Part shown: positions 24,404 through 50,914 of the stretch, piece by piece
Layout: each line of letters opens with the position of its first letter
How positions within the stretch are numbered: the first letter of the stretch is position 1
Assembly: GCA_013140605.1 (NCBI GenBank)
Contig: JABFSL010000001.1
Coordinates: forward strand, 123,707 to 187,706
Direction of reading: 5' to 3'
DNA: 64,000 bases
From: Anaerolineales bacterium
Lineage (GTDB): Bacteria; Chloroflexota; Anaerolineae; Anaerolineales; Villigracilaceae
Notes under the pieces: model-generated
Told to the model about the DNA's origin: nothing
The model's database searches: none
What the model saw: the letters and a program-made list of their open reading frames with translations, nothing else
Translations under genes and position numbers: made by a program

Positions 24404-24583
24404 CATTATCCCCCTATTACCTGGATCAATAATTTTTCGGCACTTGTCACGCCGTGATTAATACATCAAGGCTCTTGCAGATCACGATTCTGCAACAAAT
24501 CCATGCTTGACAAATTAGAACAAGTGTTCTATATTAGGGGTAGTTGATCCTTCCTGTCATTGGTTCCAAAAAGGAGATTTCCC

Positions 24584-25312
24584 ATGAACCGTTCTCTCAA
24601 CATTCAAATACTTCCATTTTTGAAAAGCACCGCCCATAAACGCGGCGCGATCTTTGGAAGTATTCTCATCACTGCCCTGCTTGCGTTCGAAGTATTCAAT
24701 TTCGGCACGACTTCATTCGCGTTGCGGGATGTTCTCGGCGATCTAAAATTCGCCGGAATGCAATGGTCGGCTGTTCTGGCCGTTGCATTCTGTGGCATCG
24801 ATTTTGCGGGAATTGCCCGCATCTTCACCCCCGAACAGGGCCGCGATGAACCTGCCGAAGTTTGGTACCTCTTTGGAGCCTGGCTTCTCGCGGCGGCATT
24901 CAATGCCATGTTGACCTGGTGGGGCGTTTCAGTGGCGATCCTCAACCACAATGTTGAAGGAGGCTCGCTGGTGGGGCAGACTGCCATGATCAAAATCGTC
25001 CCGATCTTCGTAGCTGCGATGGTTTGGCTGATCCGTGTGCTTATTATCGGTACATTCTCTGTGGCAGGCGAACGTCTCTTTACACTTGCGGATGTCCATG
25101 ACCGCTATGGTTCCTATCGAAACAACCCGGCTCAAGCCACTCAACCTGCTTATCGGCCAAATAATCAGCCGAACACTAATTATCCCCGTCCTGCGCCCAA
25201 GCCTGTCTCGAGTTATAACGTGAATCGTCCGACTGCCGAGCCCACGTATCACCCAATTGGCATGACTGCCATGGGGCGCAGTGAACAAAATTCTTCGTCT
25301 GTACGAAGATAA
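24584..25312 (+). CDS. Hypothetical multi-TM membrane protein
   Basis: Four predicted TM segments, Pro/Asn-rich C-terminus; SD aaggag. Confidence 0.75.
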   Translation: MNRSLNIQILPFLKSTAHKRGAIFGSILITALLAFEVFNFGTTSFALRDVLGDLKFAGMQWSAVLAVAFCGIDFAGIARIFTPEQGRDEPAEVWYLFGAWLLAAAFNAMLTWWGVSVAILNHNVEGGSLVGQTAMIKIVPIFVAAMVWLIRVLIIGTFSVAGERLFTLADVHDRYGSYRNNPAQATQPAYRPNNQPNTNYPRPAPKPVSSYNVNRPTAEPTYHPIGMTAMGRSEQNSSSVRR

Positions 25313-34945: not shown

Positions 34946-35191
34946 TGTTAAGTCCTTACGATAATTAACAATTAGCCACAGAGAGCATAGAGAAGTTCTT
35001 TGAGTTTGTCTCTGGTTTTCTCTGTGAACTCTGCAGCAAGTTTTTTTGAGAAAATTTATAATAACGCAATTGTACCTTAAAGAAAACAGACCATTTGTGC
35101 TATAATCTTTTTTGAAGTTAAGAGTTAAGTGGAAGTCAACAAGTTCAGAAAATAATGCCCAATTCCTAATCCCTAATTCCTAATTTAATTC

Positions 35192-37522
35192 ATGCCTCTT
35201 TTAAAACCCACCACCCCTCCCAAGAAAAACACAAAACCCGCAGGCAAAATCCTCCCATCCAAAAAAGGAGATGCGCCGCGAAGCGGTTCCGCCTCAAAGG
35301 GCAGGTCACACAAACCCCCGCCGCCTCCGCTGCCGGCGCTTTCCTGGTGGGAAAAACTTTCAGCGGAACGCAAACTCGATGTGGTCGGCATCATCCTCAC
35401 ATTTATCGGCGTTATTATTTTTCTGGGTTTGATCTCCGCCAACCGCTCTGTCTTCATCGGCGGCGCGATCTTGTTTCTTTCGCAAATTTTTGGCTGGGGC
35501 GCTTACATCCTCCCGCTTGGTTTGCTCATCTTTGGGCTTTGGCTCGTTCTCCGCAAAATAGAACGCATCCCGCCGCTTTCATTGGAACGCGCAGTTGGCA
35601 GTACCATTCTTTTCCTTTGGCTGCTCACCCTCCTGCATCTTATTACAACTCTCGGCAACGCAGATGTCGCCGAAGCTGTGGCGTTAACCGGCAAAGGCGG
35701 CGGCGCAGTAGGCGGCCTCTTCCAACGTGGACTCTCAGCCGGGCTTGGAGAGGGTGGAACTTATGTGGCACTGCTCGCCTGGCTCATTATCGGCATCGCA
35801 GTCACTTTGGATAAACCAGTACAGGATTTATTCTTCTGGCTCACACCGTTGAGGGATACATTGCGGAAGTGGCTGAACAAACCCATCGCGCCTCGCGCTT
35901 CGCGAAACCTCGAACCTGATCCTGTTCCAACAGAAGATTTCACCCCGATAGATTCTGCCGCCATGCCCGTGATGGAGCCGGTTACGGTAAACAGCATCCA
36001 ACCCACGCGCACCACCAGCGGACAGAACATCATCCACTGGAAACTTCCAGCCGTCAGCGATATTCTTGATTCAGGCAATGCGCCCGCCATCAATGAAGAT
36101 TTCATTCAACAACGCGCGCGATTAATTGAAGAGACACTTGCGTCCTTTGGCGCGCCGGCCCAGGTAGTTGCGATCAGCCGCGGGCCATCAATCACGCAGT
36201 TCGGAGTGGAGCCGCTATTTCTTGAGACCCGAGGCGGAGTCCGCACCAAGGTCCGCGTCAGCAAGATCGCATCCTTATCCGATGACCTTGCGCTCGCATT
36301 GGCTGCGCCGCGCATCCGCATTCAGGCGCCGGTGCCAGGCCATAGTTATGTGGGCATTGAAGTTCCAAACGAAGAGATGGCGATGGTGGCGCTACGCGAT
36401 ATTTTGGAAAGCGACATCTACAAACGCAATGCCAAGCCTTTGAATTTTGGTCTTGGCCGCGATGTGGCAGGACTTCCGATCATTGCCAGCCTTGAGAGTA
36501 TGCCGCATATGTTGATCGCGGGCACCACCGGTTCTGGAAAATCTGTGTGCGTGAATTCCATCCTGACTTGTTTTTTGTTGTTCAATACACCTGATGATCT
36601 GCGCATCGTTTTGGTTGACCCCAAGCGCGTGGAGTTGACCGGCTATAACGGCATTCCGCATTTACTTGGCCCCGTTGTCGTTGAAATGGACCGTGTCATC
36701 GGCGCATTGCAATGGATGACGCGCGAAATGGACAAGCGTTATCATCTGTTCGCACAGGCAGGCTCGCGCAATATCATTGACTACAATGCCAAGATGAAAT
36801 TGCAGGGACAAAAGAAGTTGCCGTACCTTGTCATCATCATCGATGAGCTGGCCGACTTGATGATGATCGCACCGGATGAAACTGAAAAAACGATTACACG
36901 CCTCGCGCAATTGGCGCGTGCCACCGGCATTCACATGATCCTCGCCACACAGCGCCCATCGGTGGATGTGGTGACGGGCCTTATCAAAGCGAACTTCCCC
37001 GCGCGTATTGCTTTCGCGGTTGCGTCCAATACCGACAGCCGCGTTATTCTTGATCAACCCGGCGCTGAAAGATTATTAGGCCGCGGCGACATGTTGTATC
37101 AAGCGCCGGATGCGCCATCCGCCGCGCGTTTGCAAGGTGTGTTCGTTTCAGATCATGAGATCCAAAATTTGGTTGAATACTGGAAGACTCAGGCTGGTGG
37201 AGCAAGTCCGTATGCGGTGGCTGGCACTCCCGCCGATTCTGTGCCAACCGGCGTTCTGCTTAAACAGACCCAATTATGGGATGAAGGCGCAAAGTCAGAT
37301 AATGATCCGCTCTTCGATGATGCCGTGGAAATTGTCCGCAAGGAAGGCAGGGCATCCGTTTCCATGCTGCAAAGAAGAATGCGCATCGGTTACACCCGCG
37401 CCTCCCGCATTGTGGATATGATGGAGGATAAAAAGATCGTCGGCCCTCCTGAAGGTGGTACGCAAATGCGGCCGGTACTGGATTATGGTCAGACCGCACC
37501 GCCAAAAGATGATGGCGCGTAG
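35192..37522 (+). CDS. ftsK: FtsK/SpoIIIE DNA translocase
   Basis: Four TM segments, GTTGSGKSVCVN, VDPKRVELTGYNGIPHLL, gamma winged helix at C-terminus. Confidence 0.95.
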   Translation: MPLLKPTTPPKKNTKPAGKILPSKKGDAPRSGSASKGRSHKPPPPPLPALSWWEKLSAERKLDVVGIILTFIGVIIFLGLISANRSVFIGGAILFLSQIFGWGAYILPLGLLIFGLWLVLRKIERIPPLSLERAVGSTILFLWLLTLLHLITTLGNADVAEAVALTGKGGGAVGGLFQRGLSAGLGEGGTYVALLAWLIIGIAVTLDKPVQDLFFWLTPLRDTLRKWLNKPIAPRASRNLEPDPVPTEDFTPIDSAAMPVMEPVTVNSIQPTRTTSGQNIIHWKLPAVSDILDSGNAPAINEDFIQQRARLIEETLASFGAPAQVVAISRGPSITQFGVEPLFLETRGGVRTKVRVSKIASLSDDLALALAAPRIRIQAPVPGHSYVGIEVPNEEMAMVALRDILESDIYKRNAKPLNFGLGRDVAGLPIIASLESMPHMLIAGTTGSGKSVCVNSILTCFLLFNTPDDLRIVLVDPKRVELTGYNGIPHLLGPVVVEMDRVIGALQWMTREMDKRYHLFAQAGSRNIIDYNAKMKLQGQKKLPYLVIIIDELADLMMIAPDETEKTITRLAQLARATGIHMILATQRPSVDVVTGLIKANFPARIAFAVASNTDSRVILDQPGAERLLGRGDMLYQAPDAPSAARLQGVFVSDHEIQNLVEYWKTQAGGASPYAVAGTPADSVPTGVLLKQTQLWDEGAKSDNDPLFDDAVEIVRKEGRASVSMLQRRMRIGYTRASRIVDMMEDKKIVGPPEGGTQMRPVLDYGQTAPPKDDGA

Positions 37523-46221: not shown

Positions 46222-46332
46222 GTTTGTCCTCCGTAAGGAAAAATATTTTTTGCGCGTGTAGTTTATCATAAGTGAAGGCGGCGATCACTTTTCGGACAGC
46301 TGTCCATAGAAAATTTGTGCTATACTCTGCCC

Positions 46333-46566
46333 ATGCCAATTATCCGCGCTTCTGAAATTGGAAGTTATCTGTATTGCCGCCGCGCCTGGCGCTATCACAA
46401 AGCTGGAGTCAAATCGGAAAATCAGGCTGAAATGGCCGCAGGGACCGAATTACATCGCCAGCACGGACGGAAGACCCTCTCCGCGCTTCTCCTTCGGACC
46501 ATTGGCATGGTACTGCTTCTTGCGGCAATTCTTCTGCTGGTGGCATTTTGTACCGCGCAATTATAG
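46333..46566 (+). CDS. Cas4-like N-terminal fragment with C-terminal TM helix
   Basis: MPIIRASEIGSYLYCRRAWRYHKAGVKSENQAEMAAGTELHRQHGRKTLSALLLRTIGMVLLLAAILLLVAFCTAQL; -10-like TATACT 6 nt before ATG. Confidence 0.75.
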   Translation: MPIIRASEIGSYLYCRRAWRYHKAGVKSENQAEMAAGTELHRQHGRKTLSALLLRTIGMVLLLAAILLLVAFCTAQL

Positions 46567-46573
46567 GAAATCA

Positions 46574-47206
46574 ATGTCAAATTTATTAAGTCGTCTCGGC
46601 TATCTGCAAACCCGTCGTGATCGAACGCCCAATCTCGATCTGGCGCGTGACCTTGTCGCGCGAAATGACATCACCGGCATTCGCGAGATCGCCGAAAACA
46701 TGTGGAACGATAACAAACATATTCACAGCGACTGCATGAACGTAATGTATGAAATTGCCATCATCGACCCAAATCTTGTTATGCCGTATGCGGCAGATTT
46801 TATAAAATTTCTAAAGGGCAAACATCAAAACATGGTGCGGGGCGCGATCACAGCACTCGCGGAAATCGCCAAGGTCAGGCCTGATTTCACATTCAAGCAT
46901 TTGGATGATATCAAAAAGATCAAAGAGACAAGCTCCGAGATCACCCTTGATAAATCCATTTCGGCGCTGGCGAACACATCCGCTGAAAATGAAGAGTACG
47001 GGAAAGTCATCTTTCCTTATTTGCTGAATCATTTGTCAACCTGCCGCTTCAAGGAAATGCCCGAACACGCCGAGAGGATATTACCCGCCGTGAACGAAGA
47101 CAATAAATATGAATTCATCAAAACTTTGGAAAAAAGAATTGAAGAACTTTCAGGCTCAGATTTCACAAGACTAAAGAAAATACTAAGAATAGCGGAAAAA
47201 CTTTAA
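46574..47206 (+). CDS. HEAT-repeat-like all-helical protein
   Basis: MSNLLSRLGYLQTRRDRTPNLDLARDLVARNDITGIREIAENMW...MVRGAITALAEIAKVRPDF; SD aggaaa. Confidence 0.75.
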   Translation: MSNLLSRLGYLQTRRDRTPNLDLARDLVARNDITGIREIAENMWNDNKHIHSDCMNVMYEIAIIDPNLVMPYAADFIKFLKGKHQNMVRGAITALAEIAKVRPDFTFKHLDDIKKIKETSSEITLDKSISALANTSAENEEYGKVIFPYLLNHLSTCRFKEMPEHAERILPAVNEDNKYEFIKTLEKRIEELSGSDFTRLKKILRIAEKL

Positions 47207-47218
47207 ACATAAACTCAG

Positions 47219-47740
47219 GTGTCTGAAGTGCTATACCTTGCCCTTGCTTTATTAATCTTTGCCCTTTTCTTCTTTCGCAAATCCTCGACCCAGCGAAAGG
47301 AAGCTGGTTTGCCCGGCGGACGGATCATCTATACCGACACGCATGGATGGGGAAAAGTGGAAAAACCGCTTTATTACTCCGCGTTGGAATTGACAGGCAA
47401 GCCTGATTATCTCGTGCAGAAAAACGGAACCATTATCCCAGTGGAGGTTAAGTCGGGTCGCGCGCCGGAAGCTCCGTACGACTCACATATTTATCAACTC
47501 GCATCCTATTGCCTGCTGGTGGAAAAAACTTATGGCACACGCCCGCCATATGGAATTATCCATTATGAAAACCGTGACTTTGCAATAGATTACACCCACG
47601 AATTGGAAACAGCCTTGATCGACCTGCTTGTGGAAATGAAACGCGATGAACATAAGAAGGATGTTCCGCGTTCGCATGAACAAGCCGCGCGCTGTGCCCG
47701 CTGTGGATATAAAAATGTTTGCGATCAGCGTCTGGCTTAA
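47219..47740 (+). CDS. Cas4/RecB-family nuclease core with N-terminal TM helix
   Basis: LALALLIFALFFF TM; GKPDYLV, IPVEVKSG, IYQLASYCLLVEKTYG, ARCARCGYKNVCDQ; GTG start. Confidence 0.85.
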   Translation: MSEVLYLALALLIFALFFFRKSSTQRKEAGLPGGRIIYTDTHGWGKVEKPLYYSALELTGKPDYLVQKNGTIIPVEVKSGRAPEAPYDSHIYQLASYCLLVEKTYGTRPPYGIIHYENRDFAIDYTHELETALIDLLVEMKRDEHKKDVPRSHEQAARCARCGYKNVCDQRLA

Positions 47741-47783: not shown

Positions 47784-48647
47784 ATGTCTGCCTCCTTCAT
47801 TCCCAAACGCCCTATTGTCACGGCCTATCCTAAAATGCCGGAGGCCTTTGCGGAAGCGGAAGCCATGTCTGCCTTTCTCAAGGAAAAAGGCCTGGAAGCA
47901 GATCATGGTTCTTTATATGATGAAGAACTGCGCAAGCGTGTGAAAAAAGGCGAGTACGACATGCTCATTGCTGTCGGCGGTGATGGAAGCGTATTACGCG
48001 CCGGTCACTTATGCGCCCCCAGCAGGGTGCCGATCCTCGGTGTGAATCTTGGCCGTCTGGGTTTCATGATCCAGGTCGACCGCAAGGAATGGCGCGGATA
48101 CTTTGAAAAACTATTCAACGGTGAAGCATGGATCGAGAACCGCATGATGCTGCGCGCAGAGCACATCCGTGCGGGCGAAAGCCTCGGCAGTTCGAACGCA
48201 TTGAACGAAGTTGTCGTTGCCCGTGGACAGAACCTGCGCCCCGTTCGCTTGACCGCTTCAGTGGATGGACGGCGCCTCACCAGTTACGTTGCGGATGGAT
48301 TGATCGCGGCCACAGCCACAGGCTCCACGGCATATGCGCTCGCCGCAGGCGGACCCATCCTGCCGCCGGAGTTACGAAATATTTTGATCGTCCCCATTGC
48401 ACCGCATCTCTCAGTGGACCGTGCGGTGGTTTTATCAGAAGGCTCTTCGGTCAGCATTGTTGTTAATAGTGAAAACTCCGTTCTCAGTGTGGATGGTCAA
48501 TTGCCGACACCGTTGATGGAAGATGATCAGGTAAAAGTAACCGCCGCAGATGTGACCGCGCAATTTGTCCGTTTTGGAGACCCGGGCTACTTCTACCGCA
48601 ACCTCACAGCACACATGAATGAAAATTCCTTAGGATTTCCACGATGA
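47784..48647 (+). CDS. nadK: NAD kinase
   Basis: AVGGDGSVLRAGHL, GVNLGRLGFM, ATATGSTAYALAAGGPIL. Confidence 0.93.
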   Translation: MSASFIPKRPIVTAYPKMPEAFAEAEAMSAFLKEKGLEADHGSLYDEELRKRVKKGEYDMLIAVGGDGSVLRAGHLCAPSRVPILGVNLGRLGFMIQVDRKEWRGYFEKLFNGEAWIENRMMLRAEHIRAGESLGSSNALNEVVVARGQNLRPVRLTASVDGRRLTSYVADGLIAATATGSTAYALAAGGPILPPELRNILIVPIAPHLSVDRAVVLSEGSSVSIVVNSENSVLSVDGQLPTPLMEDDQVKVTAADVTAQFVRFGDPGYFYRNLTAHMNENSLGFPR

Positions 48648-49177
48648 CAGAAACCATACCCACCACAACAGATACACTTTATTGTTATGTTCACCCAACC
48701 CGTGAAACCATGCTGCGCTGCAAACGCTGCGAAAGACCGATCTGCGCAACCTGTGCGCAACGCACGCCCACCGGCTACCTTTGCAAGGAGTGCGTGAATC
48801 AGCATAAAAAAATATTTGATACCGCGCTTTGGTATGACTACTTAATTGGCCCCGGCATCATTTTCACTCTCTCCTTGATCGCAAGCGGATTGCTCGCATT
48901 TATCGCGAACTTTATTGGTTTCTACATGATATTTGTTGCGTTTGCAATCGCGGGCGGCGCGGGTGTATTCCTCTCCAATATTGCATTAAAAGTGACAAGT
49001 AAACGCCGTTCACGCCCGCTCTTTATTGCCTGCGCAGCGGGTGTTGCGCTTGGCGCGATCCCCATCGGTTTAATTCTGCTGCTATCAGGCGGTATGCTCC
49101 CCGTCATCTCAATTGGAATTTACGCTGTCGTCGCCACATCCACCGTATACGCGCGGCTCGCAGGGATTCAGTTATAG
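48644..49177 (+). CDS. B-box zinc-finger membrane protein
   Basis: CYVHPTRETMLRCKRCERPICATCAQRTPTGYLCKECV then TM segments. Confidence 0.85.
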   Translation: MTETIPTTTDTLYCYVHPTRETMLRCKRCERPICATCAQRTPTGYLCKECVNQHKKIFDTALWYDYLIGPGIIFTLSLIASGLLAFIANFIGFYMIFVAFAIAGGAGVFLSNIALKVTSKRRSRPLFIACAAGVALGAIPIGLILLLSGGMLPVISIGIYAVVATSTVYARLAGIQL

Positions 49178-49180
49178 CCT

Positions 49181-50914
49181 ATGCTCACCGAACTTCACAT
49201 CCAAAATTTTGCAATCATAGACAAGCTTGATCTGCGCTTTGACTCCGGCCTCATCATCCTTACCGGTGAAACGGGCGCGGGCAAATCCATTATCCTCGAT
49301 GCGGTTGTCATGCTCATCGGCGGGAAAGCCGATACGACTTTTGTGCGCACTGATTCAGACGCCGCATTTGTCGAAGCGGTGTTCCAGCTCACAGGTCCAG
49401 AAAAAGAAGCGGTGCACTTCATCCTCAACCGCGAAGAGCTAATGGATGATCCCAATTATGTAACGCTCATGCGCGAAGTCCGCAAAGAGGGGCGCAGTGT
49501 GGCGCGCATTAATGGTCGCACGGTGAATGTTGGATTGTTGAAGGAATTAGGCGCGCTGCTGGTTGATATCCACGGACAGGCGGAGCATCTCTCACTGCTC
49601 GATCCGCGCGCACACCTTGGCCTGCTTGATCGCTACGCGGAAGTTGGTCAGCCCCTTGGCGACTACCGCCAAACTTATCATGCGATATTGAATCTTCGCC
49701 GCGAGCTGACGGATCTTCGCAAGGCACAATCGGATGCAGACCGCCGCATCGAAATGCTCACTTATCAAGCCGAGGAAATTGAATCTGCCGGGTTAAAGGC
49801 GGGCGAAGAGGAGGAACTGCGCAAAGAGCGTGATCGTTTAGCCAATGCAGAATCGCTTGCAGAAAATGCACAGGAAGCCCTGGCGGTGCTGGATGAAGGT
49901 TCACCCGAAACCCCAGCCGCAACAGACTTGATTGGTCAGGCCGCGCAGGCGTTGGCGACCCTTGCAAAAATAGACGCGGGTCAGGCAGAGTTGGCGAATC
50001 AGGCCGAACTTTTGCTTGACACGATCTCGGATGTGATTCACAGTTTGCGTGACTACCTTGAAGAAATTGAATTCAATCCCAAGCGCCTCGACGATGTTGA
50101 GGAACGTTTGGATCTGATCCACTCACTTACCAGAAAATATGGCGGCGCCATTCCCGCTGTGATCGCATACGGCGCGGACGCACGCAAACAACTTGAAACC
50201 ATTACGGGCGCAGCTGACCGCATCAATGAATTGGAAATGCAGGAAGCGAAGTTATTGGAAAAACTTGCGAAACAGGGCGGCGCGCTTTCTGAAAAACGCA
50301 AATCTGCCGCGCTTGAAATGGGCAAGGGAATCGAAGCCGAACTTAATGATCTAAAAATGCAATCTGCGCGGTTTAGTGTTGATTTCCAGACCAAGCCCGA
50401 TGCGAACGGCGCGCCCATGCAGGATGGCACGCGCATCGCATTCGACCAGAACGGTTTCGACCGCGCGGAGTTTTTAATCGCGCCGAATCCCGGTGAGGGA
50501 TTGAAACCGCTTGCAAAGATCGCATCCGGCGGTGAAACCTCGCGTTTGATGCTTGGATTAAAGAATATTTTGGCAAAGGCTGATCAAGTCCCATCACTGA
50601 TCTTCGATGAAATTGATCAGGGCATCGGCGGGCGCGTGGGCATGGTGGTTGGTCACAAACTTTGGAATCTATCCCGCACACATCAAGTCTTCTGCGTGAC
50701 TCATCTTCCCCAACTTGCGGTCTTTGGCGACCAGCATTATCAGGTGCAAAAACTTGTGGATAAAGGCCGCACACTGACGCGGGTCGAAACCCTGGAAGGC
50801 GAGCCGCGCCTGCTTGAACTATCGCAAATGCTTGGAGAAGTGGGCGAAGGAACATTGCGCTCGGCGCATGAATTATTACAGATCGCAAGACAAATGATAA
50901 AAGGCAGCAAATAA
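49181..50914 (+). CDS. recN: DNA repair protein RecN
   Basis: MLTELHIQNFAIIDKLDLRFDSGLIILTGETGAGKSIILDAV, IASGGETSRLMLGLK, FDEIDQGIGGRVG. Confidence 0.95.
   Translation: MLTELHIQNFAIIDKLDLRFDSGLIILTGETGAGKSIILDAVVMLIGGKADTTFVRTDSDAAFVEAVFQLTGPEKEAVHFILNREELMDDPNYVTLMREVRKEGRSVARINGRTVNVGLLKELGALLVDIHGQAEHLSLLDPRAHLGLLDRYAEVGQPLGDYRQTYHAILNLRRELTDLRKAQSDADRRIEMLTYQAEEIESAGLKAGEEEELRKERDRLANAESLAENAQEALAVLDEGSPETPAATDLIGQAAQALATLAKIDAGQAELANQAELLLDTISDVIHSLRDYLEEIEFNPKRLDDVEERLDLIHSLTRKYGGAIPAVIAYGADARKQLETITGAADRINELEMQEAKLLEKLAKQGGALSEKRKSAALEMGKGIEAELNDLKMQSARFSVDFQTKPDANGAPMQDGTRIAFDQNGFDRAEFLIAPNPGEGLKPLAKIASGGETSRLMLGLKNILAKADQVPSLIFDEIDQGIGGRVGMVVGHKLWNLSRTHQVFCVTHLPQLAVFGDQHYQVQKLVDKGRTLTRVETLEGEPRLLELSQMLGEVGEGTLRSAHELLQIARQMIKGSK

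Follow-up and report, generated by a model that had tools for sequence, protein, structure and literature searches.

A Cas4-type nuclease of an Anaerolineales bacterium is divided between two genes, each encoding a polypeptide with its own transmembrane (TM) helix. Both lie on the forward strand of the 64 000-nucleotide stretch of DNA analyzed here (the window), the N-half at 46333..46566 (77 aa) and the C-half at 47228..47740 (170 aa). The reading that we favour, with a probability of roughly 0.7, is that they make a single PD-(D/E)XK nuclease of the Cas4 family, probably containing a 4Fe-4S cluster, from two obligate subunits, for which a role linked to the repair of DNA damage is the most likely.

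The N-half opens with the Cas4-style sequence RASEIGSYLYCRRAWRY, followed by GTELHRQHG, and closes with one hydrophobic helix. Cys15 is contained within YLYCRRAW, GTELHRQHG holds both His41 (motif I) and His44, and the TM helix spans approximately residues 51–74. The C-half begins with a hydrophobic helix, after which come GKPDY (D60 of motif II), PVEVKS (E73 and K75 of motif III), QLASY (Q90 and Y94) and a C-x2-C-x5-C array (Cys156, Cys159 and Cys165). Both open reading frames (ORFs), and all the motifs named in a preliminary description of this DNA, are present where it placed them. It began the C-half at GTG 47219, which is indeed an in-frame start, but relatives begin at the equivalent of GTG 47228; and its layout of the locus was right for the two halves but missed a third ORF between them, at 46574..47206.

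The NCBIfam cas4 profile is covered in a complementary manner, positions 2–45 by the N-half (E = 1.4e-4) and 55–178 by the C-half (E = 9e-21), and full-length coverage of the Cas4 family profiles (TIGR00372, PF01930) is reached solely by both chains together. Measured against the curated Cas4 cut-off the C-half lies above, at 74 bits, and the N-half below. The two are the only Cas4 matches in the genome, which is 96% complete. Both evolve under purifying selection, with median dN/dS values of 0.20 for the N-half and 0.12 for the C-half. The complementary profile positions, this selection and the recurrence of the pattern in some 200 of the 298 Anaerolineae genomes show that it has not arisen by chance. 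Motif-I His, D, ExK and QxxxY, together with one N-terminal and three C-terminal cysteines, are the residues of the Cas4 family, and the pair possesses all of them; it departs from the family's usual single polypeptide, a feature that is not strictly defining.

Is the division peculiar to this genome? A genome scan located 80 relatives of the C-half, at 62–88% identity, and for about 75 of them the surrounding stretch contains the N-half too, each time as a separate ORF. Among 104 distinct loci holding both halves there is no single open frame across the two and no fused, single-chain relative; the intact Cas4 in close relatives that the preliminary description had envisaged for a broken gene was not found. 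The layout between the halves varies, taking the form of a 4-base out-of-frame overlap, stop codons, a HEAT gene or other, unlike genes. Two loci have a tandem pair of HEAT-like genes between N-half and C-half (L006:2673-3922 and L018:2641-3906), and a YkuD L,D-transpeptidase gene takes the interval in several Anaerolineae families (L126, L127, L135, L136 and L137). At one locus (L051:3032-3481) the frame of the N-half continues into unrelated residues past about position 65, reflecting a frameshift in the copy or in the assembly.

Within the 298 Anaerolineae genomes the C-half occurs in 205 and the N-half in 198; both are present in 196, the C-half alone in nine, the N-half alone in two and neither in 91. 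Four of the nine C-only genomes rest on weak matches, probably to other Cas4-type proteins. The small ORF is thus conserved with the nuclease ORF, as had been supposed, in 196 of the 207 genomes having either. Fisher's test of co-occurrence gives p ~3e-63, a value that ignores shared ancestry, so that the case rests on the pairs that are not linked. Such pairs occur in 26 of the 128 genomes tabulated for position. Many of these 26 are on separate contigs of draft genomes and are not decisive, but in the single-contig genomes G228 and G010 the halves lie 434 kb and 2.8 Mb apart. Across the phylum Chloroflexota the pair is found in further families, some of them strongly diverged, and is likewise split. 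The existence of the two halves as distinct ORFs is strongly supported, as is their standing as obligate partners.

Beyond Chloroflexota the range was sampled by means of plasmid and phage records. A tblastn search of the plasmid records revealed the C-half in plasmids of Bacillus subtilis and Paludisphaera, and the short 'hypothetical protein' encoded immediately ahead of it is in each case an N-half with its Cys, motif-I His and TM helix; the key positions are kept in both. The same split pair is found on pSINAC03 of Singulisphaera acidiphila. These plasmid sequences are complete, and thus remove any concern over metagenome assembly. In the B. subtilis plasmid (L146:11342-14663) the gene order is a DinG/Csf4-like helicase, a small ORF, the N-half, the C-half and an Hfq-like gene, and the helicase has a match to type IV DinG profiles with E = 2e-117. 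The Planctomycetota plasmid copies adjoin DNA methyltransferases, near mobF. None of the phage records matched, and viral scans gave one weak match.

In a 106-row alignment C15 and H41 are invariant in all 58 N-half rows, and D, E, K, Q, Y and the three cysteines in all 62 C-half rows, counts that exclude L100–L104, the most distant Chloroflexota copies, which deviate at motif II or QxxxY. Through L100–L105 motif II is altered to GRCD or GRCE and QxxxY to QxxxL, and the C-half of L105 is broken. Given the departures in L100–L104, activity may be lost in places. For structure prediction we took locus L030, in which the halves are separated by a lone in-frame TAG, read here as Gly, together with the same alignment. 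AlphaFold predicts this read-through chain with a pLDDT of 95.5 and a pTM of 0.90, as a complete Cas4 fold, in line with the preliminary description, with a pair of long helices arranged as a hairpin. The joined model therefore indicates that the halves fit one fold, although binding is not something that it measures. Its best Foldseek matches in the PDB are Cas4 (8d3l), ACE1, Dna2 and Cas4–Cas1, and the sequence-profile matches to PDB entries include Cas4 8d3l at 2e-11 and 4r5q at 1e-8. Charges flanking the TM helices, judged by the positive-inside rule, place the N-terminus of the small subunit inside in 40 of 44 cases and the C-terminus of the large subunit inside in 43 of 48. Both soluble parts should therefore face the cytoplasm, and this predicted topology is strongly supported by the sequences. 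The arrangement resembles a Cas4 domain with an internal TM hairpin that has been severed in its outer loop.

A scheme for the assembly can be drawn from these predictions. The small subunit would give the first helix, the first cluster cysteine and the motif-I His, while from the large subunit would come D, ExK, QxxxY and the remaining three cysteines. Within the membrane, the small subunit's C-terminal TM helix would lie against the N-terminal one of its partner to form a split hairpin, and the enzyme so assembled would be displayed towards the cytoplasm. An active site and four-Cys cluster drawn from two chains had already been proposed, and the division of the residues between the halves and the complementary profile coverage are consistent with it. 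Assembly into one active site is what the model predicts, and by analogy with the family the pair would bind an Fe-S cluster and have nuclease activity.

The ORF between the halves (46574..47206, + strand) encodes a 210 aa HEAT/ARM-repeat protein, H, that is present in 40 clustered loci and missing from many relatives. H matches designed armadillo repeats at E = 4e-7 and gives an all-helical model with a pLDDT of 88; profile match and model reveal a repeat scaffold only, with no enzyme signature. Downstream on the same strand are conserved genes, named from their sequences, for NAD kinase (47784..48647; cluster in 74 loci), a B-box-type zinc-finger membrane protein (48644..49177; 70 loci) and, ending the run, the double-strand-break repair ATPase RecN (49181..50914; 77 loci). 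The gene order N-(H)-C-nadK-zinc finger-recN is conserved in Anaerolineales, and in the window all are on one strand with short gaps. Linkage of nadK and recN is common in bacteria, and the association with recN is therefore weak when taken alone.

Beyond Anaerolineales the neighbours are often others, including Trax-like, YkuD, STAND regulator, DNA methyltransferase and DinG-like helicase genes. A Trax/translin-like gene lies upstream of the N-half in many Anaerolineae families (L126, L127, L130–L133 and L135–L140), matching AfTrax (3zc1) at E = 1.5e-34. Among the pair-positive genomes checked, roughly half have it beside the N-half, but 62 of 65 genomes carry it, some without the pair among them; being near-universal in the class it is to be regarded as a neighbour, and its position is no proof of partnership. 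In one family with unlinked halves (f6) the gene directly ahead of the N-half encodes an AAA ATPase of STAND type that bears a Trans_reg_C domain (L118:3358-5247 and L124:1934-3531). No competence gene is found among the identified recurrent neighbour clusters.

Just 5′ of the N-half start is a promoter block, TAGAAAATTTGTGCTATACT (46307..46326, + strand), in which a LexA/SOS-box-like element (46307-46322) overlaps an extended −10. In most of the roughly 75 N-half loci the block is almost unchanged, unlike its flanks. In 17 relatives the lexA promoters have GAACN4GTTC between −35 and −10, and 16 of them carry a second element like TAGCACAAATGAGCGA. On a matrix constructed from this second element, with the N-half promoters left out, the N-half promoter site ranks second of 63 985 positions in the window, first place being taken by a site before an ftsK-type gene; for the GAACN4GTTC box it ranks sixth. 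A top-three site of the locus falls within 75 bp upstream of the N-half in 69 of 75 loci. The sequence ANNTGTGCTATANT has two copies only in the genome, at the N-half promoter and before the ftsK-type gene. The latter site is the LexA-like CAGACCATTTGTGCTATAAT at 35087-35106, upstream of an FtsK/SpoIIIE-type translocase gene (35192-37522), and is the sole other copy of the motif. An SOS-box-like palindrome, TAGAACAAGTGTTCTA, occurs at 24516-24531, upstream of a membrane-protein ORF near 24560-25312, and elsewhere in the genome a similar site directly precedes a DnaQ-DinG-like gene, named by eye. When scanned with a loose pattern, a control read backwards equalled the real matches, and single-mismatch matches alone are therefore not evidence. 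A generic promoter is an unlikely explanation of TAGAAAATTTGTGCTATACT, given the two genomic copies of ANNTGTGCTATANT and a lexA half-site in the other orientation. The element shares that half-site with lexA but is not the canonical GAACN4GTTC box, and may serve another regulator. On these likenesses control of the pair by DNA damage (SOS) is probable.

Taken together, the recN gene run and the LexA-like promoter element favour damage-induced repair over uptake or phage entry. Our view of the role, held with a slight preference, is that of a DNA-damage-inducible, membrane-tethered nuclease that would process DNA ends or damaged DNA with RecN, and not in CRISPR. The preliminary description had suggested envelope DNA handling, DNA uptake or phage entry; this proposal is not supported: the soluble parts of both halves are predicted to be cytoplasmic, and the recN run and the LexA-like element point to DNA damage.

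The same two-subunit nuclease might instead degrade foreign DNA, from phages or plasmids, on its arrival at the membrane. The tether on the cytoplasmic face would suit such a defence, and the plasmid copies make it a serious rival, with DNA methyltransferases and mobF near those of Planctomycetota and a helicase with a type IV DinG profile match ahead of that of Bacillus. In some archaea, moreover, solo-Cas4 is next to restriction-modification genes according to the main text of Hudaiberdiev et al. 2017 (PMC5704561). Against this, the Anaerolineae pair is conserved and mostly single-copy in a stable nadK-recN context, unlike genes of an island, both halves are under purifying selection, the promoter element resembles LexA sites, and no phage record matched, so that we regard defence as unlikely. 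That the nuclease serves natural uptake of DNA, or its handling in the envelope, is highly improbable; it is the two TM anchors that speak for it, whereas both catalytic halves are predicted to be cytoplasmic and the recurrent neighbour clusters that we could identify contain no gene of competence.

Other alternatives question whether there is one enzyme at all. The N-half could be a membrane regulator, with a C-half that is active alone or inactive. The joining of the halves rests on prediction, and the departures of L100–L104 from motif II and QxxxY would be in keeping with such an arrangement, yet the aligned N-half rows keep the cluster Cys and the motif-I His throughout, both of which the C-half lacks, the halves co-occur even when unlinked, and the joint model is confident; this arrangement is highly improbable. 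Alternatively a frameshift, a sequencing error or the insertion of a gene might have broken a single-chain Cas4, or read-through might rejoin it, as could be imagined at those loci where one stop codon separates two halves that share a frame. Three phyla show the split, and its forms include differing genes between the halves, out-of-frame overlaps, and halves far apart on one contig. Such data already exclude a broken gene or an assembly error, for which we see virtually no chance. The favoured reading remains that of one nuclease made from two obligate subunits.

We know of no established function for bacterial solo-Cas4. In Chloroflexota it has probably been studied and annotated as the C-half alone, which would be unable to complete an active site or cluster, and expression of the annotated 'Cas4' gene by itself would yield an incomplete enzyme. 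The missing subunit can now be identified as an ORF of 75–90 aa, a 'hypothetical protein' in plasmid records, and the pair makes function testable in B. subtilis, whose natural plasmids carry it. More tentatively, and with the odds somewhat against the full proposal, there may be a class of two-gene, membrane-assembled Fe-S nucleases in at least three phyla, in which the split of the catalytic domain between two TM subunits would be an assembly lock, giving activity only at the place and time at which the halves come together in the membrane; under DNA-damage control it would act at the membrane, on chromosomal DNA that is broken or on DNA that is entering. If true, a PD-(D/E)XK/Fe-S nuclease that is divided in this manner and sits on the membrane would be an unusual means of controlling a DNA-degrading enzyme.

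How does the pair relate to known systems? There is no cas1 in this 96% complete genome, which rules out a CRISPR role here, and the pair has nadK and recN as neighbours; lying outside CRISPR-cas loci it is by definition a solo-Cas4, and what the preliminary description proposed, a Cas4-type nuclease that is split, anchored twice in the membrane and located away from CRISPR loci, holds good. Of 65 genomes of the class, cas1 is present in 33 of 46 that are pair-positive and in 10 of 19 that are pair-negative, away from the pair. Two genomes have weak extra Cas4-type matches beside cas1 (contig C5 of G111 and contig C5 of G033), and a CRISPR Cas4 and the split pair therefore probably coexist in one genome. 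Solo-Cas4 proteins that are monophyletic in many Chloroflexi and Thermoanaerobacterales were described by Hudaiberdiev et al. 2017 (PMC5704561), whose main text contains neither 'split' nor 'transmembrane', and 'membrane' once in an unrelated sense. The published Chloroflexi solo-Cas4 is very likely the C-half of the split pair. Literature searches, covering the main text of that paper, returned no account of a split or membrane-anchored Cas4 or of a separate N-half, and Cas4-family enzymes in the literature searched are described as single chains only. Solo-Cas4 in Chloroflexi is therefore known already, and the split and the membrane anchors, for which we found no report, are apparently new.

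The solved Cas4 structures (type I-C Cas4, 8d3l; Pcal_0546, 4r5q; SSO0001, 4ic1) are like the pair in their PD-(D/E)XK fold, their motifs and their 1 + 3 cysteines, and provide its best matches of sequence and fold. Structurally solved Cas4 is a single soluble chain, and CRISPR Cas4 works with Cas1–Cas2. Dna2, AddAB and AdnAB share the RecB-family nuclease domain (fold matches 5eax, 7sjr and 3u44); in these the nuclease is joined to a helicase in one chain with no TM helix, whereas the gene run of the window has no helicase and the pair on the Bacillus plasmid follows a DinG-like helicase. The Argonaute-associated ACE1 (9iab, 9iac) is, like the pair, a Cas4 fold outside CRISPR, but it is a single chain of about 266 residues, with Argonaute as its partner according to the PDB title.
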